From NCBI GenBank assembly GCA_016875225.1, contig VGRW01000011.1:1-64000 (forward strand): 64,000 nucleotides of DNA, read 5' to 3'. The first letter of the stretch is position 1. The number at the start of each line of letters is the position of its first letter. Below are positions 50,747 to 63,806 of the stretch, one piece after another. Both the position numbers and the translations under genes were made by a program. The notes beneath the pieces were generated by a model. The model was not told where the DNA came from. It made no database searches and worked only from the letters and a program-made list of their open reading frames with translations. The DNA comes from Deltaproteobacteria bacterium. GTDB taxonomy: Bacteria; Myxococcota_A; UBA9160; SZUA-336.

Positions 50747-52291
50747 TCACTCCCGCGCAGCGAGCGCTGCGAAGAGCTCGGCGTCGCTCGAGACCCCCAG
50801 GATCCCGCGCGCCGCGTTCACGCCCGACGTCACCACGCCGTAGACGCCGCCGCCCGGCTGCGCCCAGTGACCCGCGAGCCAGAGCCCGGGAAGCGGCGTC
50901 TCGTTCCCGGGCCGGCCCGGCCCGATCTGGTCCGGGGAGAGCGCCCAGCCGTACATCGCTCCGTCGCTGTTCCGTGTATAGCGCTCCAGCGTGCGCGGCG
51001 TGCCGCCCTCGGCGAAGCGGACCGATCCGGCCAGGCCGGGAAAGCGCGAATCCGCGACCTGGATCATCGCGTCCACGCGCGCCGATTTCTCTGCGCGCCA
51101 GTCGCGCTGCGCCCCGTAGGGAAGCAGCGTCGTGAGCGTCATCAGGTGCGTGCCCTCGGGCGCGAGCGTAGGATCCGCGAGCGTCGGCACGGTCGCGGTC
51201 CACCAGCCCGGCCGGCCCGCGAGCGTCGCTCCGAAGGCGGCCTCGTGGTCGAAGTCCGGGTACACGAACGTCTCGTGCGACGCGCCGAGCCGGGCCAGGT
51301 CGAGATCGGTCGCGAGATAGGTGACGAACGCCGAGATCGACGGCGTGAGCCGCGCCAGCGGCCGTCGGAAGCGCGCGGAGAAGTGCTCGGGCCCCACGAG
51401 CTCGAAGACCGTCTGGCGCAGATCGGCGTTCGAGACCACCACGGGCGCCGCGACGCGCTGCCCGTTCTCGAGCACGATGCCGGTCGCCCGGCCGCCCTCG
51501 ACGCTGATGCGCCGCACCGAGCTGCGCAGCAGCACCTCGCCGCCGTCGCGCTCGACCGATCGCGCGAGAGCGCGCGCGAGCCGCTGGAAGCTGCCCCGGC
51601 AGTAGTACGCGCCCTCGGCGACGTACGAGAGCAGCATGGTCGCGAAGTAGAGGAACGAGACGCGCTGCGGCGGCAGGCCGAGATACGGCCAGAAAGTCGC
51701 GAACGCCGCCTTCGCGCGCGCGTCGTCCAGATGCTCGTCCATGACTCGCGAAAGCGTCGCGCGCCGGTAGCGCAGCAGCGTCGGAAAGCGCCCCGGTCGC
51801 TGCATGACCTCGAACGGCGAGGCGAGCTCCGCCGCGCGCCGCGCCTCGCTCTGGATGGAAAGGCACTCCTGGAGCAGGTCGTGAAGCCCCTTGCGCTCGG
51901 CGGGGAATACCTGCGCGTGCGAGCGCTCGAACTCGTCGAGGCCGAGCCTGGGCCGCAGCTCCAGGCCCGGGTAGACCGCGGTGTAGAGCGGATCGATCCG
52001 CTCGAAGCGCAGCTCCGCGCGGGCGCCGACCGCCTCGAGCACGCGGTGCAGCAGCCCGCCGCCCTCGAACGGCGTCGGCTCGCAGCCGCCGACCAGATGC
52101 ACCGCCGAGTCGAAGACGCAGCCGTTGCGGCGGAACGAGTGCGCGTAGCCGCCGGGGCGATCGTGGCGCTCGACCACGAGCACCGACCGGCCGGCGCGCG
52201 CGAGCAGAGCTGCGCAGCTCAGGCCCCCCAGCCCGCTGCCCACGACGATCGCGTCGTAGCGGTCGCGTCGCGCCTCGCGGCGGAACCTCAT
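50747..52291 (-). CDS. Phytoene desaturase/retinol saturase-like FAD oxidoreductase
   Basis: A 514-residue flavoprotein of the CrtI/all-trans-retinol saturase group. The FAD-binding GSGLGG is at 18-23, with ERHDRPGGYAHSF as the following ribityl/phosphate loop and a matching C-terminal FAD segment (GLWLAGHWAQPGGGVYGVV). These enzymes desaturate, saturate or isomerise polyene chains. No other carotenoid gene is near. The ATG at 52291 is preferred; an in-frame TTG at 52327 could add 12 residues. It is divergent from the carrier-protein operon, with a TTGAAA-N17-TAGATT promoter for this strand, so joint regulation and function in one product pathway are likely. Confidence 0.85.
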   Translation of the reverse strand: MRFRREARRDRYDAIVVGSGLGGLSCAALLARAGRSVLVVERHDRPGGYAHSFRRNGCVFDSAVHLVGGCEPTPFEGGGLLHRVLEAVGARAELRFERIDPLYTAVYPGLELRPRLGLDEFERSHAQVFPAERKGLHDLLQECLSIQSEARRAAELASPFEVMQRPGRFPTLLRYRRATLSRVMDEHLDDARAKAAFATFWPYLGLPPQRVSFLYFATMLLSYVAEGAYYCRGSFQRLARALARSVERDGGEVLLRSSVRRISVEGGRATGIVLENGQRVAAPVVVSNADLRQTVFELVGPEHFSARFRRPLARLTPSISAFVTYLATDLDLARLGASHETFVYPDFDHEAAFGATLAGRPGWWTATVPTLADPTLAPEGTHLMTLTTLLPYGAQRDWRAEKSARVDAMIQVADSRFPGLAGSVRFAEGGTPRTLERYTRNSDGAMYGWALSPDQIGPGRPGNETPLPGLWLAGHWAQPGGGVYGVVTSGVNAARGILGVSSDAELFAALAARE

Positions 52292-52350
52292 CGCGCCCGC
52301 TGCACCGGATCGCGAGCCGGCCGCCAATCGAAGCGTCGCATTCTCGCCGC

Positions 52351-52379
52351 AATCTAGACGAGCGCATCCGGCGTTTCAA
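52351..52379 (-). promoter_or_regulatory. Promoter for the desaturase-like gene
   Basis: On the minus strand TTGAAA (52379-52374) and TAGATT (52356-52351) are separated by exactly 17 nt. That gives five and four matches to the sigma-70 hexamers. Transcription would start near 52344, leaving a leader of about 50 nt. It is one of the best sigma-70-like promoters visible here. Confidence 0.55.
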
Positions 52380-52385
52380 CGCGCC

Positions 52386-52415
52386 TTGACAAGCCGAGCG
52401 GCGCGGTGCGAAACA
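52386..52415 (+). promoter_or_regulatory. Possible promoter for the carrier-protein operon
   Basis: TTGACA at 52386-52391 is a perfect -35 hexamer. The -10 at 18 nt, GAAACA (52410-52415), is poor. Its -35 lies only 6 bp from the -35 of the divergent desaturase promoter, so one regulator could control both. The start codon follows after about 10 nt. Confidence 0.4.
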
Positions 52416-52425
52416 CGGTGGCGCG

Positions 52426-52683
52426 ATGAGCTGGAGCCGCGAAGCGCTGACGACCCGAATCCACCAGATCCTCCGCGACGAGCTGCTTTCGGTGGGGGAC
52501 GAGTTCACGCCCCAGTCCGACCTCGTCGCGGCGGGGCTCGACTCGCTGGCGGTGACGCAGCTCCTGCTCGCGATCGAGGAGAGCACGGGCGTCTGGGTCG
52601 ACGAGAGCCTGCTCACCGAGAAGACGCTCGCGAGCGCGGAGACCCTGGCGGCCTGCGTGCATGACCAGCTCCCTGGCCGCTAG
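52426..52683 (+). CDS. Acyl/peptidyl carrier protein
   Basis: An 85-residue four-helix carrier protein. The attachment serine for 4'-phosphopantetheine is Ser40 in AGLDSLAVTQLL, and the surrounding helices fit the PP-binding domain. The LDSL form is common to both fatty acid-type and NRPS-type carriers, so its cargo could be acyl or aminoacyl. It is the first gene of a coupled set of four; the next gene begins 22 nt before its stop. No phosphopantetheinyl transferase is encoded in the window. Confidence 0.88.
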   Translation: MSWSREALTTRIHQILRDELLSVGDEFTPQSDLVAAGLDSLAVTQLLLAIEESTGVWVDESLLTEKTLASAETLAACVHDQLPGR

Positions 52684-54013
52684 CCCGGTTCCGCTCACCG
52701 GCGCGGACTGCTTCCTGCGCGCCTTCGACGCCGAGGTGCGCCGGACCGCGGGCTCGAGCCACCTGTCGCAGCTGGTGCTGCGACTCGGGCCGGGTCTCGA
52801 TCTCCAGCGCCTGCGCGCGCTGCTGGCCGAGGTCGCGCGCGCGCAGCCGCTGCTTCGCGCGCCGATCCGCCGGCCGTTCGGCCTGCTGCCGCCGGTGTAC
52901 CGCACGGATCTCGCGGCGCGCGCGACCCCGCCGCGGATCGAGGTGCACGAGCGCGAAGCCGGCCCCGACGGCCCGGATTGCGCGGTTCCGGAGCCGATCC
53001 AGATGCGCCTGAACGATCGCCTCGACGGCCGGAGCGGCGATCTGCTGCGCTGCGACGTCGTGCGCTGGAACAGCGGCGCGGCCGGAAGCGACGTGGCCTT
53101 CACCTGGCTGCACATGCTGCTCGACGGCTCCGGCAGCGAGCGCTTCGTGCGCTGGCTCGACGAGGTCGGACGCGGCGCGCGGCGGGCCGACCAGCTGCCC
53201 GAGGAGGCCGAGGCGCGAACGGCCCGGGCCGCGCAGACCGCGAAGGCGCGCGGCGACGACGCGCTGCGCTGGCAGGCGCGGATGCGCTCGTTCGCCGCGA
53301 GGGCGCCGAGGTCGCTCGCGGGGCCGCTCGCGCGCCGCGCGCAGAACCTCGGCTACGACGTCGAGAGCTTCGCCCCCGACGAGACCGCGCGGATCGTCGC
53401 GCGCGCGAAGCAGAGCGCGGGTTTCCTCACGCCGATGCTCTTCTACCTGGCCGCGGGCGTGCGCGCTCACCACGCGGTGTTTCGCGCGCGCGGCGTCGAC
53501 CCGGGAAGCTTCGTGGTGCCGCTGCCGGTGAACCTGCGCGCGAAGGGCGGGCAGGGCGAGATCTTCGGCACGCGCATCTCGCTGATCTGGTTCCAGGTGT
53601 TTCCCGAGCAGGCCGAGAGCCTCGAGGGCCTGATCGCGCAGCTGAAGGCGCAGCGGCTCGCGGCGATCAAGGAGGAGCTCGTCGAGGCCGGCAGCGCGGC
53701 GATGGACTTCGCGCGCTGGCTGCCGCGCCGCTTCTACACCGGAATGGCGCGGCACACGTTCGCGGGCGAGCTCTGCTCGTTCTTCTTCGCCTACACCGAC
53801 GAGTTCCTGCCCGGAATGACGCGCTTCCTGGACTGCGAGATCCGCAACGCCTTCCACGCGCCGTCGGTCCCGCCCTCGCCCGGAAGCGGCGTGGTCTTCT
53901 CGCTGCGCGCGGGGCGGCTGAACACCACGCACGTGCGCCAGCAGGGCGTGTTCTCCGACGCGGAGGCGGCGCTGTTCCGGCGCGCGCTGCGCGCCGACCT
54001 GCTCGGCGGGTGA
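52661..54013 (+). CDS. Condensation-domain-like acyltransferase
   Basis: A 450-residue protein that fits the chloramphenicol acetyltransferase/NRPS condensation superfamily. The catalytic HxxxDG is His151-Met-Leu-Leu-Asp155-Gly156 in WLHMLLDGSGS, at the usual position. The second half contains VPLPVNLRAKG, a typical strand and latch region. Free-standing members include PapA-type and wax-ester-type acyltransferases and esterifying condensation enzymes. It probably takes the acyl group from the carrier protein to an alcohol or amine. It overlaps the carrier gene by 23 nt and its own stop overlaps the FAD gene's start (GTGA). Confidence 0.75.
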   Translation: MTSSLAASPVPLTGADCFLRAFDAEVRRTAGSSHLSQLVLRLGPGLDLQRLRALLAEVARAQPLLRAPIRRPFGLLPPVYRTDLAARATPPRIEVHEREAGPDGPDCAVPEPIQMRLNDRLDGRSGDLLRCDVVRWNSGAAGSDVAFTWLHMLLDGSGSERFVRWLDEVGRGARRADQLPEEAEARTARAAQTAKARGDDALRWQARMRSFAARAPRSLAGPLARRAQNLGYDVESFAPDETARIVARAKQSAGFLTPMLFYLAAGVRAHHAVFRARGVDPGSFVVPLPVNLRAKGGQGEIFGTRISLIWFQVFPEQAESLEGLIAQLKAQRLAAIKEELVEAGSAAMDFARWLPRRFYTGMARHTFAGELCSFFFAYTDEFLPGMTRFLDCEIRNAFHAPSVPPSPGSGVVFSLRAGRLNTTHVRQQGVFSDAEAALFRRALRADLLGG

Positions 54014-55284
54014 AGGTGGCCGCGAACGCCTCGCGCTTCGACGTGGCCGTGATCGGCGGCGGAAGCGCCGGGGTCGCGGCGGCGCTCGCTGCTTCGCGCT
54101 GCGGCGCGCGCACGCTTCTGGTCGAGCGCGAGGCGAGGCTCGGGGGAAACGCCGCGCACGCGCTGGTCCACACGATCTGCGGCCTGTACCTGCCCGCGGA
54201 TGCGGGCGAGCCGGTCCTCGCCAACGGCGGCGTCCCGCGCGAGATCGCGCTCGCGCTCGGCGGCGTGGCCGAGCGCGCGGGGAAGGTCTGGGTCCTGCCG
54301 GCGCCGCCCGCCGCGCTCTCCGCGCTCTACGGCGATCGGTGTCGGGCGGAGCCCGCGCTCGCGCTGCGCCTGCACGCGGAGCTGGTCGCGGTCGAGCTCG
54401 CGACCGACGCGCGGCGCGAGAGCGCGCTGCGGCTCCGCGGTCCCGACGGGGAGATCGAGCTTGGCGCACGCGCGGTGATCGACGCCAGCGGCGACGCGGC
54501 AGTGGCCTTCCTCGGCCATGCCGACTGGGAGATCGAGCCTCCGGCGCGGCTGCAGTGCCCGTCGTACGTCTTCCGGATCGAGGGCGTCGCGGCCGGAGCG
54601 ACCTCCGGCTTCGAGCGCGTGCGCCTCACCGCAGCGCTCGCGGCGGCCACGCGCGCGGGCGCGCTTCCGCAGCTCGCGGAGTCGGTGGTGCTGCGCAGCT
54701 GCGGCGAGCCGGGGCAGGTCTTCGTGACGCTGAACCTGGCGCGGCCCGAGGGCGAGGCGTGGCGACCGCTGGACCCCGACTGCGTGGCCGCGCTCGAGGC
54801 GAGCGCGCGTGCCGGCGCAGAGGCGATCGCGGTTTTCCTGCGCGATTCGCGCCCCGGCTTCGCGGCGAGTCGGATCGCCGAGCACCCGCTGCGGCTCGGC
54901 ATCCGCGAGACGCGCCGCGCGCTCGGCCCGGTCGTGCTCGGGGCCGACGACGTGCTCGATGGCGTCCGGCGCGACGACGAGGTCGCCGTCTCGACCTGGC
55001 CCCCCGAGCTGTGGCAATCGCACGCGCGCGCCAGCCTGGAATACCCGCGTGGCGCGTGCTCGGTTCCGCTCGGCGCGCTGGTCTCGCGCACGCATCCCCG
55101 GCTCGGCGTGGCCGGGCGCTGCGTGTCGGCCACGCACGAGGCGCTCGGCGCGCTGCGAGTGATCGGCACGTCGCTCGCGACCGGCGAGGCGATCGGTCGC
55201 GCGGCCGCGCTCGCGGTGGACGCGGGCGTCGCGCTCGGCGCGATTGCGCCGGCGCGGGTCCGCGAGCAAACTCGCGCGACGTGA
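54010..55284 (+). CDS. FAD-dependent oxidoreductase (PF12831-like)
   Basis: A 424-residue flavoprotein. The FAD Rossmann motif is VIGGGSAG at 14-21, followed by VEREARLGGNAAHALV, as in the FAD-dependent oxidoreductase group that includes some amine and dehydrogenating enzymes. The C-terminal part has GVAGRCVSATHEALGALRVIGTSLATGEAIG, the second FAD contact typical of PF12831. It lacks the WxWxIP motif of tryptophan halogenases. It is coupled by GTGA overlaps to the condensation gene before (54010) and the ligase after (55281). It likely oxidises a carrier-bound intermediate, though this is inference. Confidence 0.8.
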   Translation: MKVAANASRFDVAVIGGGSAGVAAALAASRCGARTLLVEREARLGGNAAHALVHTICGLYLPADAGEPVLANGGVPREIALALGGVAERAGKVWVLPAPPAALSALYGDRCRAEPALALRLHAELVAVELATDARRESALRLRGPDGEIELGARAVIDASGDAAVAFLGHADWEIEPPARLQCPSYVFRIEGVAAGATSGFERVRLTAALAAATRAGALPQLAESVVLRSCGEPGQVFVTLNLARPEGEAWRPLDPDCVAALEASARAGAEAIAVFLRDSRPGFAASRIAEHPLRLGIRETRRALGPVVLGADDVLDGVRRDDEVAVSTWPPELWQSHARASLEYPRGACSVPLGALVSRTHPRLGVAGRCVSATHEALGALRVIGTSLATGEAIGRAAALAVDAGVALGAIAPARVREQTRAT

Positions 55285-56735
55285 GCGAGACCGTCGTCGA
55301 CCTGATCCGCGCGCACGCGCTGCGCGCGCCCGAGAGGGCAGCGCTGGTCGTGTCGGGCGGCGCGGGCGCCGCGCCCGAGCGCGTCTCGTACCGAGAGCTC
55401 GTGTCGCGCGTCGACGCGCTCGAGGCGGAGCTGCGCTCGGCGGGAGTCGGAAGCGCGCAGCGCGTCGGCCTGGTCGCGCGCCAGGGTCGCGGCTTCATCG
55501 AGCTGGCGCTCGCGATCCTCTCCTGCCGCGCGTGCCTGGTGCCGATCGCCGACGACCACAAGGGCGCGGTGCTCGAGGCCTTCGCGGAGCGCGCACAGCT
55601 GCACGCGATCGCGATCGAGCGCGAGAGCGCGCCGGGCTTCGAGCTCGTCGTCCGCCCGCAGGCGCGCGCCGTCGACGCAAACGCGGATCGCGACTTCGCC
55701 GCGCTCGATCCCGCGTACCTGCGCTTCACGTCCGGCACCACCAGCCGGCGCAAGGGCGTGATCCTCGGTCACGCGGCGATCCTCGCGCGACTCGCCGCGG
55801 CCAATCGCGGGCTCGGCGTCGGACCGGGCGACCGGATCCTCTGGCTGCTGCCGATGGCGCATCACTTCGTGGTGTCGATCCTGCTCTACCTGCGCTACGG
55901 AGCGTCGATCCTGCTTCCCGCGGCTTCGCTCGCCCGGCCGATCCTCGAGCTCGCCTCGCGCGAGCGCGCGACGATTCTCTACGCCTCTCCGTACCACATG
56001 AACCTGCTCGCGAAGGATGCCTCCGAGCTGCAGCTCGCGGACGTGCGGCTCGCGATCTCGACCGCGGAAGGCCTGCGCCCCGAGATCGCGCGCGCCTTCG
56101 CGTCGCGTTTCGGAAGGCCGGTCGCGCAGGCGCTCGGCATCATCGAGGTCGGCCTGCCGGTTCTGAACGCCGCGAGCGCGGCCCACAAGCCCGGCTCGCT
56201 CGGCCGGCCCCTTCCCGACTACGAGGTCTGGCTGCGCGGCGAGGACGGGCTTCCGGTCTCACCGCCCACTTCGCCCGACAAAACCGGCGAGATCTGCATC
56301 CGCGGGCCCGGCTGCTTCGACGCGTATCTCGATCCGTGGACGCCCGCGCGCCTCGTGCTCGAGCCCGACGGCTTCCGCACCGGCGATCAGGGCTGGTTCG
56401 ACGCCGAGGGCGACCTGTTCCTGGTCGGGCGGCGCGCGAACCGGATCAACATGGCGGGGATGAAGTTCTTCAGCGAGGAGGTCGAGGCCGTGCTCGACGC
56501 GCATCCGCGGGTCCGGCGCAGCCGCGTCCGCGCGCGCGAGCACGCGCACCTCGGAGAGATTCCCATCGCCGACTTCGAGCCGGCCGATCCCGCGAATCCG
56601 CCGACGAGCGCCGAGCTCGCGGCCTGGTGCCGCGAGCGCCTGCCCGCGTACAAGATCCCGCGCGAGTTCCGCATCGTCGACTCGCTTCCCGAAACCGCGA
56701 CCGGAAAGCTCGCCCGCGGCGCCGCGGATGCGTAG
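55281..56735 (+). CDS. Adenylate-forming acyl ligase
   Basis: A 484-residue ANL-superfamily enzyme. The P-loop is FTSGTTSRRKG (149-159), the A5 region LGIIEVGLP follows, then TGDQGWFDAEGDLFLVGR (A7/A8) and the C-terminal catalytic Lys476 in TATGKLARG. It activates a carboxylic acid as the acyl-AMP and would load it on the carrier protein of this operon, or on CoA. The A5 region differs from the GxTE of fatty acyl-CoA ligases, so the substrate is hard to predict. The GTG overlaps the upstream stop. Confidence 0.88.
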   Translation: MSETVVDLIRAHALRAPERAALVVSGGAGAAPERVSYRELVSRVDALEAELRSAGVGSAQRVGLVARQGRGFIELALAILSCRACLVPIADDHKGAVLEAFAERAQLHAIAIERESAPGFELVVRPQARAVDANADRDFAALDPAYLRFTSGTTSRRKGVILGHAAILARLAAANRGLGVGPGDRILWLLPMAHHFVVSILLYLRYGASILLPAASLARPILELASRERATILYASPYHMNLLAKDASELQLADVRLAISTAEGLRPEIARAFASRFGRPVAQALGIIEVGLPVLNAASAAHKPGSLGRPLPDYEVWLRGEDGLPVSPPTSPDKTGEICIRGPGCFDAYLDPWTPARLVLEPDGFRTGDQGWFDAEGDLFLVGRRANRINMAGMKFFSEEVEAVLDAHPRVRRSRVRAREHAHLGEIPIADFEPADPANPPTSAELAAWCRERLPAYKIPREFRIVDSLPETATGKLARGAADA

Positions 56736-56792: not shown

Positions 56793-57863
56793 ATGAAGTC
56801 CGGCGCACGGATCGCCCGGCGGGTGCTTACGGCCGTGGGCGCGGCCGTCGCGCTCTTCCTGGCGTACCTGGCGATCGTCGCGGTGGTGCCCGGCATGGCG
56901 GTTCCACCGCAGCCGTTCGGGACTGACACGGCTGCGGTCGCTCGCGGTGACTCCGACGCGGGGCTCGGCCGGAGGCGGGTCGCGTTCGAGGTGAACGGCA
57001 CTCCGGTGAACGGGTGGCTGTATCTGCCGGACGACCTGGCCGCGCCGGTGCCCGCGGTCGTCATGGCCAATGGGGCCGGCGGCACCGTGGAGATGGCCGT
57101 GCCGGAATACGCGGCTCGGTTCCGCGAGGCCGGCTACGCGGCGCTGGCGTTCGACTACCGCTGCTGGGGCGAGAGCGGAGGGGCGCCGCGGCAGCTGCTC
57201 TGGATCCCGGACCAGCTGGTCGACCTGGCGGCGGCGCTCGAGTTCGCGCGCGGCCGGCCCGAGATCGACGCCTCGCGCATCGCCCTGTGGGGCACGTCGT
57301 TCGGAGGGGGCCACGTCCTCGTGACGGCGGCCGAGGACCCCGGCGTGCGCGCGGTCATCGCGCAGGTGCCGTTCCTCGACGGACGGGCGGCGATGGAGCT
57401 GGAGCGCGAGGACGAGTCCATTGGCCTGGGGCTGCGGGCGATCGCGCACGCCCAGCGCGATCTCGTCCGCTCGTGGCTGGGGTTGCCGGCGCACTACGTC
57501 CCGTTCGTCGGTCGGCCCGGAACCATCGCCGTGCTCGCGGGCAAGGAGGCGTGGGACTTCTTCAGCGCGCATGCGCCCGCGGGCTACGAGAACCAAGTCC
57601 CGGCGCGCATCCTGATCCGCGCCGACAAGTACCGCCCGGTCAGCCGGGCCCGCGAGGTTCGGGCGGCAGTGCTGCTGCAGATGGCCGAGCGCGACCGCTT
57701 CGCGCCCGCCAGCGCGATCGAGGCGGCCGCACGGGAGCTCGGCGAGCGCGCGACGCTGAAGCGCTACCCGATCGGCCACTTCGAGATCTACGCGGGCGCG
57801 GCCTTCGAGCAGAGCGTGGCCGATCAGCTGGCGTTCCTGGACCGCGAGCTCGGACGGAAGTGA
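56793..57863 (+). CDS. Membrane-anchored or exported alpha/beta hydrolase
   Basis: A 356-residue hydrolase. An N-terminal hydrophobic segment (about 12-35) suggests export or an anchor. The nucleophile is Ser169 in LWGTSFGGGH, the His is in RYPIGHFEIY, and an acid in AERDRFAPAS. The extended core resembles dipeptidyl peptidase or X-Pro acyl hydrolases more loosely than simple esterases. It is 57 nt after the ligase gene and could be part of that cluster, for example as a release or tailoring enzyme. GGGGAGG precedes the ATG. Confidence 0.82.
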   Translation: MKSGARIARRVLTAVGAAVALFLAYLAIVAVVPGMAVPPQPFGTDTAAVARGDSDAGLGRRRVAFEVNGTPVNGWLYLPDDLAAPVPAVVMANGAGGTVEMAVPEYAARFREAGYAALAFDYRCWGESGGAPRQLLWIPDQLVDLAAALEFARGRPEIDASRIALWGTSFGGGHVLVTAAEDPGVRAVIAQVPFLDGRAAMELEREDESIGLGLRAIAHAQRDLVRSWLGLPAHYVPFVGRPGTIAVLAGKEAWDFFSAHAPAGYENQVPARILIRADKYRPVSRAREVRAAVLLQMAERDRFAPASAIEAAARELGERATLKRYPIGHFEIYAGAAFEQSVADQLAFLDRELGRK

Positions 57864-57898
57864 ATCCTCCGCGCGGCGCGACGGGGTCGACGAGGAGC

Positions 57899-58861
57899 TC
57901 AGCCGAGCGAGCGCAGGAATTCGACCAGGATGCGGTTCACCTCCTGCGGCCGCTCCTGCTGGGTCCAGTGGCCGCAGCCGGGCAGCATCTCGCTGCGGCG
58001 CAGCGTGGGCACCGTCTTGGCCAGGTCGGTCACCGCCTGCGGATTGGCCATCACCACGCCGTCGCGGTCGCCCGCGACGAAGAGCGCCGGCACGCGGATC
58101 CGCGCGCCGCGCAGCGCGCGCATCTGCTGCCATGAGCGGTCGATGTTGCGGTACCAGTTGAGACCGCCGCGAAAACCCGTGCGCTCGAACTCGCCGGCGT
58201 AGAAGTCGAGGTCCTGCTCCGAGAGCCAGGCCGGCGGCTTCTCGGGCTTTGCGAACCCGTCCGAGAACTTCGCGGTCTTGGCCAGCTGTCCGAGCTTGGT
58301 GGTCTCGATCCGCACGTCGCCCGACGCGGTGTAGAAGAACATCTCGAGCCAGCCGCGCACGTCGGCCTCGAGCTCGCGCTCCGCCTTGCCGGGCTCCTGG
58401 AAGTAGAGGATGTAGTGGAACCGGTCGCCCGCGAGCGCCTTCAGCAGCTGCGTGGGCGGGAGCGGCGGCGCCGGCGAGAGCGGCACCGAGAGCGCGCCGA
58501 CGGCGCGGAACAGGTCCGGGCGCAGCAGAGCCGCGTTCCAGGCCACCGGTGCGCCCCAATCGTGGCCGATGATCACCGCCTCGCTCTCGCCGAGCGCCGC
58601 GACCAGGCCGACCATGTCGCCGACCAGCTCGAGCTGGCCGTAGGCCTCGACCTCGTGCGGGCGCGCGCTGCGGCCGTAGCCGCGCATGTCGGGCGCGACC
58701 GCGCGGAATCCCGCCGCGGCGAGCGCGTCGAGCTGATGGCGCCACGAGTACCACGACTCGGGGAAGCCGTGGCAGAGCAGGACCAGCGGCCCCTCGCCCT
58801 GCTCGGCGACGTGAAGCCGTGTGCCGTGCGCGTCGACGAAGCGGTGTCTGGGCTGCGCCAT
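57899..58861 (-). CDS. Epoxide hydrolase-like alpha/beta hydrolase
   Basis: A 320-residue soluble hydrolase. CHGFPESWYSW (30-40) provides the oxyanion motif, Asp101 in IIGHDWGAPVAW is the nucleophile as in epoxide hydrolases, and GHW with His298 completes the triad. A cap with LGQLAKTAKF lies between. It opens epoxides to diols or acts as a dehalogenase-like enzyme. GGAGG lies 7 nt before the ATG, which fixes the start. It is divergent from the acyl-CoA dehydrogenase with 101 nt between starts. Confidence 0.9.
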   Translation of the reverse strand: MAQPRHRFVDAHGTRLHVAEQGEGPLVLLCHGFPESWYSWRHQLDALAAAGFRAVAPDMRGYGRSARPHEVEAYGQLELVGDMVGLVAALGESEAVIIGHDWGAPVAWNAALLRPDLFRAVGALSVPLSPAPPLPPTQLLKALAGDRFHYILYFQEPGKAERELEADVRGWLEMFFYTASGDVRIETTKLGQLAKTAKFSDGFAKPEKPPAWLSEQDLDFYAGEFERTGFRGGLNWYRNIDRSWQQMRALRGARIRVPALFVAGDRDGVVMANPQAVTDLAKTVPTLRRSEMLPGCGHWTQQERPQEVNRILVEFLRSLG

Positions 58862-58962
58862 GAGCGTCCTCCAGTCCGAGCGTATCAGCCTGCATCCGCC
58901 GTCGCCGGCGGATAGGATTGCCCCGAAGTCAGCGGCGACGACCCGTCCCACCAGGAGGATCC

Positions 58963-60189
58963 ATGGCGATCGATTTCAGCTTCGATGAGGACGTCCAGCT
59001 CGCGATCGACCACACGCGCAAGTTCATGGACGACGTCGTCCGCCCGGCGGAGAAGGAGATCGACCTGCACCCGGACTCGCGCGAGGTCCTGGTCAAGCAG
59101 GTGATCCGGATGCGCAAGGCGGCGCAGGAGTGGGGACTGTGGCTGCCCCACATGCCGGCGGACTGGGGAGGCATGGGGCTCGGGCACGTGGCGATGGCCG
59201 CCGTCTCCGCCGAGGCCGGCCGGACGCGCTTCGGCCCCTTCGCACTGAACGCCCAGGCCCCCGACGAGGGGAACATGCACACGCTCCTGCACTGGGCGAC
59301 GCCGGAGCAGAAGGAGAAGTACCTGCGCCCGCTGTGCAAGGGCGTGGCGCGCTCGTGCTTCGCGATGACGGAGCCCGATGTCGCGGGCTCCGACCCGACG
59401 CTGATCCGGACCCGCGCGGTGGAGAGGGAAGACCACTGGCTCGTGAACGGGCACAAGTGGTTCATCTCCGGCGCCCGCGGCGCGCAGTTCGCGATCCTGA
59501 TCGCGCGCACCGAGGAGAGCCCCGAGATTCCGCAGGCCTGCAACACCGCTTTCCTGGTCGACATCCCGTCGCAGGGCTGGGACATCCTGCGCGACATCGA
59601 GACCATGAGCGGCGGCCACAACCACTGCGAGATCCGGATCACCGACCTGAAGGTGCCCAAGTCGAACCTGCTGGGCGGGCGCGGTCAGGGCCACCGCCTG
59701 GGCCAGTACCGGCTCGGGCCCGCGCGCCTGGCGCACTGCATGCGCTGGATCGGCCAGGCCGAGAACGCGCTCGACATGACGATCGAGCGCGCGCTGCACC
59801 GCTTCTCGCACGGGTCGCTGCTTGCCGAGAAGCAGGGCATCCAGTGGATGATCGCCGACTCGACCATGGAGCTGTACCAGTCGAAGCTGATGGTGCTGCA
59901 CGCCGCCTACCGGATCGACAAGGGGCTCGACTTCAAGAGCGAGGTCTCGATGGCGAAGCACTTCGTGGCCAACGCGCTGGGGCGGATCATCGACCGCGCG
60001 ATCCAGGTCCACGGCGCGCTGGGCTACAGCAAGGACTCGCCGCTGGCCTCGATGGCGACGCAGGCGCGCTGGGCGCGCTTCGCGGACGGCGCCGACGAGA
60101 TCCATCAGTGGCGGATCGCGGAGCGCTCGATCGAGGCCTACGCGAAGACGGGCAGCGTGCGGGCGGCCGCAGGCGACCTGCCGCTCTAA
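58963..60189 (+). CDS. Acyl-CoA dehydrogenase
   Basis: A 408-residue flavoprotein. Domains appear in order: N-terminal helical, central beta (MTEPDVAGSDPTLIRTRA) and C-terminal helical (LGRIIDRAIQVHGALGYSKDSPLA). The ISGARGAQFAILIARTEE stretch resembles the ACAD10/11-like group that uses long or substituted substrates. The candidate base region ARFADGADEIHQW is retained. AGGAGG precedes the ATG, with a TAGGAT box 45 nt upstream (58913-58918). It may degrade an acyl-CoA with branched or hydroxylated chain. Its stop interlocks with the following convergent gene. Confidence 0.9.
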   Translation: MAIDFSFDEDVQLAIDHTRKFMDDVVRPAEKEIDLHPDSREVLVKQVIRMRKAAQEWGLWLPHMPADWGGMGLGHVAMAAVSAEAGRTRFGPFALNAQAPDEGNMHTLLHWATPEQKEKYLRPLCKGVARSCFAMTEPDVAGSDPTLIRTRAVEREDHWLVNGHKWFISGARGAQFAILIARTEESPEIPQACNTAFLVDIPSQGWDILRDIETMSGGHNHCEIRITDLKVPKSNLLGGRGQGHRLGQYRLGPARLAHCMRWIGQAENALDMTIERALHRFSHGSLLAEKQGIQWMIADSTMELYQSKLMVLHAAYRIDKGLDFKSEVSMAKHFVANALGRIIDRAIQVHGALGYSKDSPLASMATQARWARFADGADEIHQWRIAERSIEAYAKTGSVRAAAGDLPL

Positions 60190-60674
60190 TCGCCCGCGCG
60201 CGCGGGCGCCAGCGTGGCCTCGTAGCCGCAGGCGTCGCTCGAGATGTGCACGACGCCGTCCGGGTCGCGGCGCACGCGGCGATTCTCGAGCTCGGCGACG
60301 TCCGTCGCCAGGAAGTGCGCGCGGTGGAAATCGCGGAGCACGTTCTCAGGCGGGACGGGCAGGGCGCGGCCGAGCCTGGATTCGCTCTGCACCTCCAGCC
60401 CGACCTGCACGAGCGTGAACGCCGTCGCGCCGAACGGCGTGAGCCCGATCAGCACGAGCCGGTCGCCGCTCTTCTGCGCGACCAGCCCGTAGGCCTCGTC
60501 GACGCGGTGGCCGCGCACGCGGATCCGCTCGTGGATCAGAAAGTCGCTCGCTAGATCGGCGGTGGACACGAGGCTCCCCGCGCAGTCCGGAATCCGCGGC
60601 GGCGGTCGCAGCTGGCAGGCCGCGGACGCGGCGAGTGCGAGCACGAGAGCGAGAGAGAGCCGATCAGGCCGCAC
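60186..60674 (-). CDS. DUF3261-like lipoprotein
   Basis: A 162-residue lipoprotein, lipobox ending at Cys20 (ASAAC). The beta-rich body includes RLVLIGLTPFGATAFTLVQ and, near the C-terminus, RRVRRDPDGVVHISSDACGYEATL. This resembles DUF3261 lipoproteins found with MMPL exporters in aryl-polyene and xanthomonadin clusters. The GTG at 60674 overlaps the end of the MMPL gene by 11 nt, indicating cotranscription. It would act at the outer membrane together with the exporter and the LolA-like protein. The family match is from memory of short motifs, so it is moderate. Confidence 0.65.
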   Translation of the reverse strand: MRPDRLSLALVLALAASAACQLRPPPRIPDCAGSLVSTADLASDFLIHERIRVRGHRVDEAYGLVAQKSGDRLVLIGLTPFGATAFTLVQVGLEVQSESRLGRALPVPPENVLRDFHRAHFLATDVAELENRRVRRDPDGVVHISSDACGYEATLAPARAGD

Positions 60675-63030
60675 GGCCGGAGTCCGAGTCCGCGCGCAGC
60701 GCCAGCAGCGAGAGCGGCGCGAGCGCGAGCGAGGCAACGATGCCGACGCCGGTCGTGAGACCGATCGCGCGCAGAGCCGGGTGACTCGAGAGCGCCAGCG
60801 TTCCGAAGCCGAGGATCGTGGTCAGGCAGCAGAGCAGACACGACACCAGGGTCGCGCCGATCTCCTCGCCCTTCGCGCTGCTGTCGACCACGAAGATGCC
60901 GTAGTCGACGCCCATTCCCATCACGATCAGAAGGCTCACGGCGTGCAGCAGGTTGGTCTCGGTGCCCGAGAGCGCGAACCCCGAGAGCACGAGGATCGCC
61001 GTGGCGAGCGCCGGCAGGAACGCGGCCAGCGCGCGGCGCAAGCTGCGGTAGCGGGCGACCAGGAGCCCCAGAACGCAGACGCTGCCGAGAACGATCTGCA
61101 GCAGCGTGCGGGTCCGGAAGCTCGCGGCGATCTGGTTCAGGAACGCGCCCTGCTCGAGGAAGTGCACGTCGGGAAGGCCGTCCAGCGCCGCGCGGATCCG
61201 CTCGGGGTCGTTCACGCCGCGCAGGTAGGTGATCACGGCGGTGCGCCCTTCCAGGTCCAGCACGAGCGTCGAGGCGAGCGCGCCGAGCGGCGAGGCGCGG
61301 AGCTCCGCGAGCGTGAGCGGCGGCGGCGGCGAATCGAGCGACTGCGCGAACGCCGCGAACGCGCCCGGGCGGAAGCCCGCCTCGCTGTAGGCGGTTTCGA
61401 TCCGCGCCGCGAGATCGGGGCTCGCGCGCAGAGCGTCGAGATTGCGCTGCTGGAGCTGCGGCGACCAGAGCAGGTCGTGCAGCGAGCGCATCCCGCCGAG
61501 CTCTCCGCTCTCGACCAGCGCTTCGAGCCGCGCGTGGACCTGCTCGTCGCGCTCGAGCGCGGCTTCGGGCCGATCGGCGAGCGCGATCACGAAGCGTCCG
61601 CCGTCGAAGCTCGAGACGCGCGCGCGAACGCGCGCCTCCTCCGCGCGCAGCTCGGGGTCGGGCTGCCCGAGGCTCGAGAGGTCGTCGTTCCAGGACAGCT
61701 TCGGCAGCGCGAACACCCCGAGCGCGAGGATCGCGGCGGGCACCAGCGCGAGCGCGCGGCGCCGCGCGCGAAGCCGGGCCAATCCGGCCGCGAAGCCGCG
61801 TGCGAGCCGGGCCGAGATCGGCGGCGCGGGGCGATCCCGCGGGACCAGATCCGGAAGGAGCAAGAGCGACGCCGCGAGCGCCCCGGCGACACCGACCAGC
61901 GCGAAGACGCCGAGCTCTCGAAAGCCGCGAAACGAAGTGATCGCCAGGCCCGCGAAGCTCACGATCGTGGTGAGCGCGGCCAGCGAGAGCGATCCGGAGA
62001 GCCGGCGCGCCAATCGCCACGGAGAGGTGAGCGGCGGCGAGAAGCTGCGCAGGATCAGGTAGTGGATCGGGTAGTCGATCGTGACGCCGATCAGGGACGC
62101 GCCGAAGCCGATCGTCGTGCCGTCGAGTCGGCCGAACACTGCGAGGCCGACCGCCGTCGCGAGCGACAGCCCGAGCACAACCGGAACGAGCACCAGCGCC
62201 AGCTGCGCTGCGGAGCGGAAGAAGAGCCAGGAGAGCAGCGCGACGCCCGCGAACGAGAGCGTCGAGATCATCGATGCGTCGGCGCGCAGCTTCGTCTCGG
62301 CGTCGAGCGCGAAGCGGTTCGCGCCGCTCTGCTCGAGCGACAGGTCGGGGCCCAGCCGCGCGCGGAGCGAGTCGAATTCCGAGCGGATCGCTTCGAGCAG
62401 CGGCCGCTGCGCGACGGTGTCGAACGCGGAGCGCTTCGTCGCGAGCAGGATCACGGCGTGGTGCCCGTCGCGGGTGACGAAGGCGCCGTCGCGGGTCGCC
62501 AGCGGCGGCTCGCCCGCCTGCATGCGCTCGAGCACGCCGCGGAACGCGCCCAGCGGATCCTCGGGCGCGATCCGCTTCAGCAGCGGCGAGATCGGCAGCG
62601 CGAGGCTGCGGCGCAGCTCGGCCGCCTCGGCGCGCAGGCCGGAATCGGAGAGGCGCGCGGGAAGCTCGCGCTCCGGATCGTCGGAGACGAAGTAGAGCCG
62701 GCGCGGGAAGTAGAGCCGGTAGAGCTGCTCCTGCAGCTCGGAGTCCGCGCCGGTGCGAAGCCAGGCGACCTCGGGATGGGCGCGAATCGCCGCCGAAAGC
62801 GCCTTCGCCGCCTCGATCGCGTCCGCAGGATCGTCCGCGCCGATCGAGAGCACCATCGTGCGCGCGAGGTCGCTGCGCACGAGCTCGCGCGAGATCTGCG
62901 CCAGCTCCGCGCCTCGACCGTCGGGCAGGAAGTTCGTGATGTCGGTGCTGAACGTGATCCGGCTCGCGCTGTAGGCGAAGAGCGAGAGCCCGAGCGCCGC
63001 CCAGGCCACGAGCCGCGCGCGCCGGCTCAC
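60664..63030 (-). CDS. MMPL-family exporter
   Basis: A 788-residue RND-type membrane protein with two sets of helices around periplasmic loops. Family marks include FGASLIGVTIDYPIHYLILR and, in the second half, IVMGMGVDYGIFVVDSSAKGEEIG. The size fits the exporters of lipid-like products, for example polyene or hopanoid transport. Its GTG overlaps the stop of the LolA-like gene (GTGA, 63027-63030). It probably moves a hydrophobic product out of the inner membrane and hands it to the LolA-like carrier. Confidence 0.88.
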   Translation of the reverse strand: MSRRARLVAWAALGLSLFAYSASRITFSTDITNFLPDGRGAELAQISRELVRSDLARTMVLSIGADDPADAIEAAKALSAAIRAHPEVAWLRTGADSELQEQLYRLYFPRRLYFVSDDPERELPARLSDSGLRAEAAELRRSLALPISPLLKRIAPEDPLGAFRGVLERMQAGEPPLATRDGAFVTRDGHHAVILLATKRSAFDTVAQRPLLEAIRSEFDSLRARLGPDLSLEQSGANRFALDAETKLRADASMISTLSFAGVALLSWLFFRSAAQLALVLVPVVLGLSLATAVGLAVFGRLDGTTIGFGASLIGVTIDYPIHYLILRSFSPPLTSPWRLARRLSGSLSLAALTTIVSFAGLAITSFRGFRELGVFALVGVAGALAASLLLLPDLVPRDRPAPPISARLARGFAAGLARLRARRRALALVPAAILALGVFALPKLSWNDDLSSLGQPDPELRAEEARVRARVSSFDGGRFVIALADRPEAALERDEQVHARLEALVESGELGGMRSLHDLLWSPQLQQRNLDALRASPDLAARIETAYSEAGFRPGAFAAFAQSLDSPPPPLTLAELRASPLGALASTLVLDLEGRTAVITYLRGVNDPERIRAALDGLPDVHFLEQGAFLNQIAASFRTRTLLQIVLGSVCVLGLLVARYRSLRRALAAFLPALATAILVLSGFALSGTETNLLHAVSLLIVMGMGVDYGIFVVDSSAKGEEIGATLVSCLLCCLTTILGFGTLALSSHPALRAIGLTTGVGIVASLALAPLSLLALRADSDSGRAA

Positions 63031-63659
63031 CGGCTCGGCTCCGATCCGAAGATCGAGCGCTCCTCCTCGGGGCCGAAGGCGTGGTCGACCTCGCTCCTCT
63101 CGAAGAGCGTCTTCGTGCGGTCGCCGTCGCTCTCGGTGAGCTCCATCTCGCCGATCGCCGGCCCGTCCCCGGCGATCCGGATCGAGCGGATGAAGTCGCG
63201 AAGCGGCGCTTCCTTCGGCGAGAGCAAGAGCGTCCAGCGCGGGCCGTCGGCCGCGAAGTCGAGCCGGTAGAGCGACTCGAGCGCCTTCCGGTCGCCGCGC
63301 CAGAGCACGATCAGATTGTGGGCGAACTGCCGCGCGACGGGATTGGCGGAGAGGTCGATCTCGCTCACGCCCGCCTCGTCCTCGAAGCGCATCCGGTCGC
63401 CGAGCAGGAGCAGCCGGGTCGCGGCGGGGCTGCGCGTCACGCGGGCGAGCTTGTCGGGCGGAGCGAAGTAGAGCGTGCCGCGGGTCTCGAGCGGCGCCTC
63501 CAGAAGCGCGAGCCGTTTCTCCTCGCGGAACTCGGCCACGACCCCGCGCGTCGTCGCCATGTGCCGGAGCAGCTCGTCGAGCGTGAGGCTTCCGCCGGGA
63601 GCGGGCGCCTCGGCGCCGAGCAGGACCGCGGCGACGAGCGGGAGAAGCAGCGCCCTCAT
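63027..63659 (-). CDS. LolA-like outer-membrane lipoprotein carrier
   Basis: A 210-residue periplasmic protein with a signal peptide to about residue 18. The sequence GVVAEFREEKRLALLEAPLETRGTLYFAPPDKLARV matches the half-barrel of LolA-related proteins, and the later DFIRSIRIAGDGPAIGEMELTESDGDRT fits its C-terminal strands. Such variants sit next to MMPL exporters and carry lipid-like molecules rather than general lipoproteins. The ATG at 63659 opens directly into the signal peptide. It heads the minus-strand run LolA-like, MMPL, DUF3261. Confidence 0.8.
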   Translation of the reverse strand: MRALLLPLVAAVLLGAEAPAPGGSLTLDELLRHMATTRGVVAEFREEKRLALLEAPLETRGTLYFAPPDKLARVTRSPAATRLLLLGDRMRFEDEAGVSEIDLSANPVARQFAHNLIVLWRGDRKALESLYRLDFAADGPRWTLLLSPKEAPLRDFIRSIRIAGDGPAIGEMELTESDGDRTKTLFERSEVDHAFGPEEERSIFGSEPSR

Positions 63660-63806
63660 TCGCGCAGGTCTAAACAAAGCCACCGTCCGGCGCTAGGTTC
63701 GGGCGCGCTCGCGGGGATCCAGTCGCGCCTCCGCCGCGGAGACGCGAGCTCGATCGGGGCCGGCCCCGGGCAGGGCAACTGACGGGTTCTCATGCAACGG
63801 CGCTCG

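Follow-up and report, generated by a model that had tools for sequence, protein, structure and literature searches.

A compact five-gene module next to polyene export genes

The window, by which we mean the whole stretch of 64,000 nucleotides that was analysed, comprises bases 1–64000 of contig C11, which itself ends at position 67276. Five genes make up the module at 50747–56735:

50747..52327, minus strand: CrtI/CrtISO-like FAD flavoenzyme (likely ATG start at 52291)
52426..52683, plus strand: dedicated acyl carrier protein (ACP) with GLDSL (PF00550, 1.4e-8)
52661..54013, plus strand: putative stand-alone condensation-like acyltransferase with HxxxDG (fold model; no Pfam match)
54010..55284, plus strand: PF12831 FAD oxidoreductase (PF12831, 3e-68)
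55281..56735, plus strand: AMP-forming acyl ligase (PF00501, 3e-53; AMP-binding and C domain)

Profile searches against Pfam assign a family to every module protein except the condensation-like one. Coordinates confirm the coupling of the plus-strand genes that a preliminary description of this DNA had pointed out: the ACP and condensation-like genes overlap by 23 nt (52661–52683), and GTGA overlaps join the condensation-like gene to the PF12831 gene (54010–54013) and the latter to the ligase gene (55281–55284). The CrtI-like gene indeed diverges upstream of the ACP gene (50747–52327 on the minus strand, 52426 on the plus strand), with 134 bp between the two ATG codons. The further proposal that both directions share promoters in this gap is weakly supported: a promoter scan gave one sigma-70-like match, on the CrtI side, and most relatives carry an extra gene between CrtI and ACP, for a tryptophan-halogenase-like flavoenzyme (PF04820, WxWxIP motif).

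Downstream of the module, the window continues with six genes:

56793..57863, plus strand: alpha/beta hydrolase (outside the conserved set)
57899..58951, minus strand: alpha/beta hydrolase, epoxide-hydrolase type (outside the conserved set)
58963..60189, plus strand: acyl-CoA dehydrogenase (outside the conserved set)
60186..60737, minus strand: DUF3261 lipoprotein-like protein, compare ApeN (PF11659, 3e-6; kept beside MMPL in relatives)
60664..63030, minus strand: MMPL/RND-type exporter, compare ApeM (PF03176, 0.0026, below cut-off; HpnN-like, 1e-31; position conserved)
63027..63683, minus strand: LolA-like carrier, compare ApeL (LolA_3, 3e-14)

The LolA and MMPL exporter genes thus lie 4 kb downstream of the module, and the LolA-like protein is closest to the NCBIfam flexirubin LolA2 family (6e-16, below cut-off). 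The two hydrolases and the acyl-CoA dehydrogenase (56793–60189) stand between module and exporter in this species only among those compared; a sister species has none of them between the ligase and DUF3261 genes.

The aryl-polyene core lies past the window edge

Profile searches of the remainder of C11 and of a second contig, C112, placed the module in the context of an aryl polyene (APE) cluster. Outside the window lie the following features:

C11, 63865–67043: PlsC-type acyltransferase, ACP, ACP and ligase-ApeI fusion
C112, 2791–3996: ketosynthase KS (PF00109/PF02801, TACSSG)
C112, 3993–4718: chain-length factor CLF, adjoining KS

The fusion combines PF00501 with PF22818 (2e-9), and PF00550 was matched twice, once for each of the two ACPs. 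After the fusion gene, C11 carries the start of a GT2 gene, some 28 codons, before it runs into one end of an insertion element. The reverse complement of C112 opens with an apparent transposase C-terminus followed by the rest of GT2, and then carries Lip_A_acyltrans, an ApeP dehydratase (PF22817, 1e-14), a ketoreductase (KR; PF13561), a membrane protein, CLF and KS. GT2 appears to be split by this element, whose ends terminate C11 (67170–67276) and C112 (right end) and which we call IS5-like from its translated ends rather than from a database search. From the split gene and the arrangement in the sister species we infer that C11 and C112 are neighbours in the genome; in that species (genome G010) one unbroken contig, C49, carries KS, GT2, ligase-ApeI, ACPs, LolA, MMPL, DUF3261 and the module ligase, and the PF12831 gene is divided between the ends of C49 and C168. 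The export and anchoring set (LolA, MMPL, DUF3261, PlsC and GT2) is present here, with GT2 interrupted by the insertion.

Two oddities of this genome accompany the split. About 27 residues are repeated in tandem and in frame within the ketoreductase (C112, L134:5471–6310), REITVNCVAPGLVDTEMLAGAPVAELAK occurring twice, as a duplication or an assembly artefact. The homologue of the halogenase-like gene lies on another contig (C158, L147, 1748–3088), where it occupies two frames through a frameshift or a sequencing error and adjoins a second PF04820 gene. With GT2 split and the halogenase-like gene apparently frameshifted, the APE cluster of this strain may be partly decayed.

These contigs also account for the impression, given in the preliminary description, of a unit lacking a ketosynthase and unlike polyene synthesis. 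The cluster seems to have no ketosynthase owing to the window edge and the contig broken at the insertion element: the KS and CLF pair is present in the genome, on C112 instead of C11, and adjoins the module region in relatives, and the module belongs to a type II PKS cluster of the APE type. A stand-alone compact carrier pathway working without a ketosynthase, for which the tight coupling of four genes with no KS among them might speak, is accordingly very improbable; we rejected it because APE genes including KS-CLF are linked to the module here and in relatives, and because APE genes occur in every one of the 23 genomes of the class that carry the module.

The module is co-inherited with aryl-polyene genes

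Order and coding strands of the module are kept in about 20 other genomes, at roughly 50–70% identity, which argues that the arrangement is not due to chance. The genes keep together in relatives; the CrtI-like gene also adjoins the module in most of them.

Of the 91 genomes of the class, 23 encode an orthologue of the condensation-like protein, and every one of these 23 has APE genes. The ligase-ApeI protein is found at E<1e-60 in 21 of the 23 module genomes and in 12 of the 68 others (Fisher p=3e-10), and PF12831 orthologues at E<1e-100 in 22 of 23 and none of 68 (p=3e-20), with the caveat that the genomes are related, so that both p-values overstate independence. G028 and G041, the module genomes beyond the 21, carry APE genes other than this one next to the module. 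APE genes share the contig of the module in 17 neighbourhoods, while the other seven contigs end within about 4 kb downstream of it, a count over genomes of the class, the window and two contigs from the database, L010 and L011. The 12 genomes that have the APE ligase and lack the module indicate that the module marks a subtype of APE cluster. Outside the class, in a genome of another family (G106), condensation-like, PF12831 and ligase genes stand in the same order at 27–38% identity, and an APE cluster on another contig includes ApeI, KS, KR and an ammonia-lyase. Taken as a whole, the region 50747–56735 is best read as an accessory module of an APE/xanthomonadin/flexirubin-type cluster; to its membership of the APE cluster, taken alone, we assign a probability of roughly 93%.

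How the module serves the cluster can be read in more than one way. In G054, a 90%-complete MAG, the ACP and condensation-like genes are kept and no orthologue of the ligase or the PF12831 enzyme was found, so the four module steps may not be obligatory. This genome lends some weight to an alternative in which the ACP and the condensation-like enzyme off-load the APE assembly line: the finished polyene would be moved to the module ACP and from there to an alcohol or amine acceptor, and the ligase and flavoenzyme would only prepare or modify the acceptor or the starter. In G080 and G081 the module ACP has APE-core dehydratase and acyltransferase genes as neighbours, which points the same way. 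We nevertheless consider off-loading unlikely, if a serious contender, since a genome of such completeness is not decisive and the flavoenzyme orthologue is kept in 22 of the 23 module genomes.

A condensation-domain fold and a ligase apparently lacking Asp235

The condensation-like protein matched no Pfam family in the profile search and gave no meaningful match among sequences of solved structures. Its AlphaFold2 model is confident (pLDDT 89, pTM 0.90) and shows the two-lobed C-domain fold, which supports a condensation-domain fold for this protein. Within the HHxxxDG motif of its homologues (alignment A1), the first His is variable, whereas the second His, the Asp and the Gly (H151, D155 and G156) are invariant. 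The best Foldseek match is AzeD (8s6l, TM 0.74/0.76), and C, Cy and E domains of NRPSs follow close behind with similar E-values. Fold and HxxxDG are common to AzeD, the NRPS condensation domains and this protein, which differs from them in its low identity (~13–18%) and in having no Pfam condensation match.

As AzeD is annotated as a dehydratase, the condensation reaction stays putative. The protein might instead be an AzeD-like dehydratase acting on a carrier-bound substrate, yielding an unsaturated or dehydrated acyl group with no transfer. AzeD does rank above all C domains, but these score almost as well and the fold does not decide the reaction; we regard this alternative as improbable. 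A brief look also turned up distant relatives of the condensation-like protein in G247, G186, G378 and G215. The one in G247, a genome of another family in which no ApeI match was found, adjoins a halogenase-like gene (G247:C371, L155, 3116–5872).

Among the other module proteins, the ACP was aligned with 23 homologues, in all of which LDS is invariant. In the ligase, H195, invariant in alignment A4, takes the place of Asp235, the residue for the alpha-amino group in NRPS A domains; the equivalence was read by eye against the A-domain motifs, with the distance to the next glycine motif as a guide. A His in this position makes an alpha-amino acid substrate unlikely. Loading of an amino acid was hence disfavoured, given the lack of Asp235 in this by-eye assignment, and the substrate is probably a carboxylic acid other than an alpha-amino acid, judging from the sequence.

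The PF12831 enzyme matches its family over the full length (231 bits, residues 11–419). Its fold matches are generic flavoenzymes (TM about 0.45), with an unspecific resemblance to flavin monooxygenases, and the attempt to derive a reaction from structure was dropped for this reason. The CrtI-like protein matches Pfam Amino_oxidase (3e-31) and, in NCBIfam, crtI_fam with 181 bits (below the cut-off of 238) and carot_isom with 155 bits.

Comparison with known clusters

The ApeA-R cluster of E. coli serves as the APE reference (PMC8253772). It has in common with the present cluster a ligase, ApeI- and ApeP-type dehydratases, KR, KS-CLF, two ACPs, a PlsC-type acyltransferase and a GT, along with LolA-, MMPL- and DUF3261-type export genes. 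The differences are that ligase and ApeI are fused here, that GT and lipid-A-type acyltransferase are separate here, and that the text consulted makes no mention of the five-gene module or of halogenase-like genes. The xanthomonadin and arcuflavin clusters (PMC3691225, PMC3949708) are likewise type II PKS pigment clusters with a halogenase-like gene, LolA, an exporter, a GT, an acyltransferase and an AMP ligase; in the text consulted no condensation-like, PF12831 or CrtI-like gene was found, and XanB2 stands where the present cluster type has an aromatic ammonia-lyase.

Flexirubin-type clusters share the LolA resemblance to LolA2 (below cut-off) and the ammonia-lyase in the cluster of relatives; they differ in that no dialkylresorcinol genes were recognised among the conserved genes here. 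The aromatic ammonia-lyase lies inside the APE cluster in most relatives and has a homologue in this genome on contig C2 (68% identical over 155 residues). Its place in the cluster suggests a cinnamate-type polyene starter, a starter also found in flexirubins. Celluxanthene (PMC12144888), considered as an aryl-polyene alkaloid parallel, was set aside because its cluster works with an iterative type I PKS together with a KASIII pair.

The claim that the gene combination matches no described pathway holds in part. The surrounding cluster belongs to the known APE class, whereas the four-gene core of the module has no matching class. A description of the module was not found in the open-licence literature on aryl polyene, phytoene and condensation, a weak indication, and as far as that literature shows the five-gene module itself is undescribed.

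A proposed role for the module

By analogy with E. coli (PMC8253772), the core genes (ligase-ApeI, two ACPs, KS-CLF, KR and ApeP) would make an aryl polyene acyl-ACP, the acyltransferases and GT2 would fix the polyene to an anchor, either a lipid or a sugar, and export to the outer membrane would fall to MMPL, LolA and DUF3261. The four coupled genes, a conserved unit, do supply what is needed for activation, loading, oxidation and transfer of an acyl group, as proposed earlier. The module would add a second arm: its ligase would adenylate a carboxylic acid and load it onto the dedicated ACP, the PF12831 flavoenzyme would oxidise the ACP-bound acyl group, and the condensation-like enzyme may link this group to the polyene or to the anchor through an ester or amide bond. 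The CrtI-like enzyme may tailor the polyene by isomerisation or desaturation, and the tryptophan-halogenase-like enzyme of relatives by halogenation or hydroxylation.

The data establish what the genes are, their coupling, the APE context and the co-inheritance; the substrates, the order of the steps and the bond made by the module are what we infer. An APE accessory module with an arm that loads, oxidises and transfers an acyl group is, as a whole picture, somewhat favoured by the data, while the specific order of chemical steps is tentative and, in our judgement, somewhat doubtful. It is possible, if fairly unlikely, that a discrete NRPS-like arm, made up of ligase, carrier, oxidase and free-standing condensation enzyme, couples an aryl polyene to a second acyl group that has been oxidised, in which case uncultured deltaproteobacteria-like lineages would make an undescribed class of conjugated aryl-polyene lipids.

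What looked like an orphan carrier unit is explained in this way as an extension of a pigment pathway that is among the most widespread in bacteria, and the genes of the module can serve as markers of a new aryl-polyene subtype.
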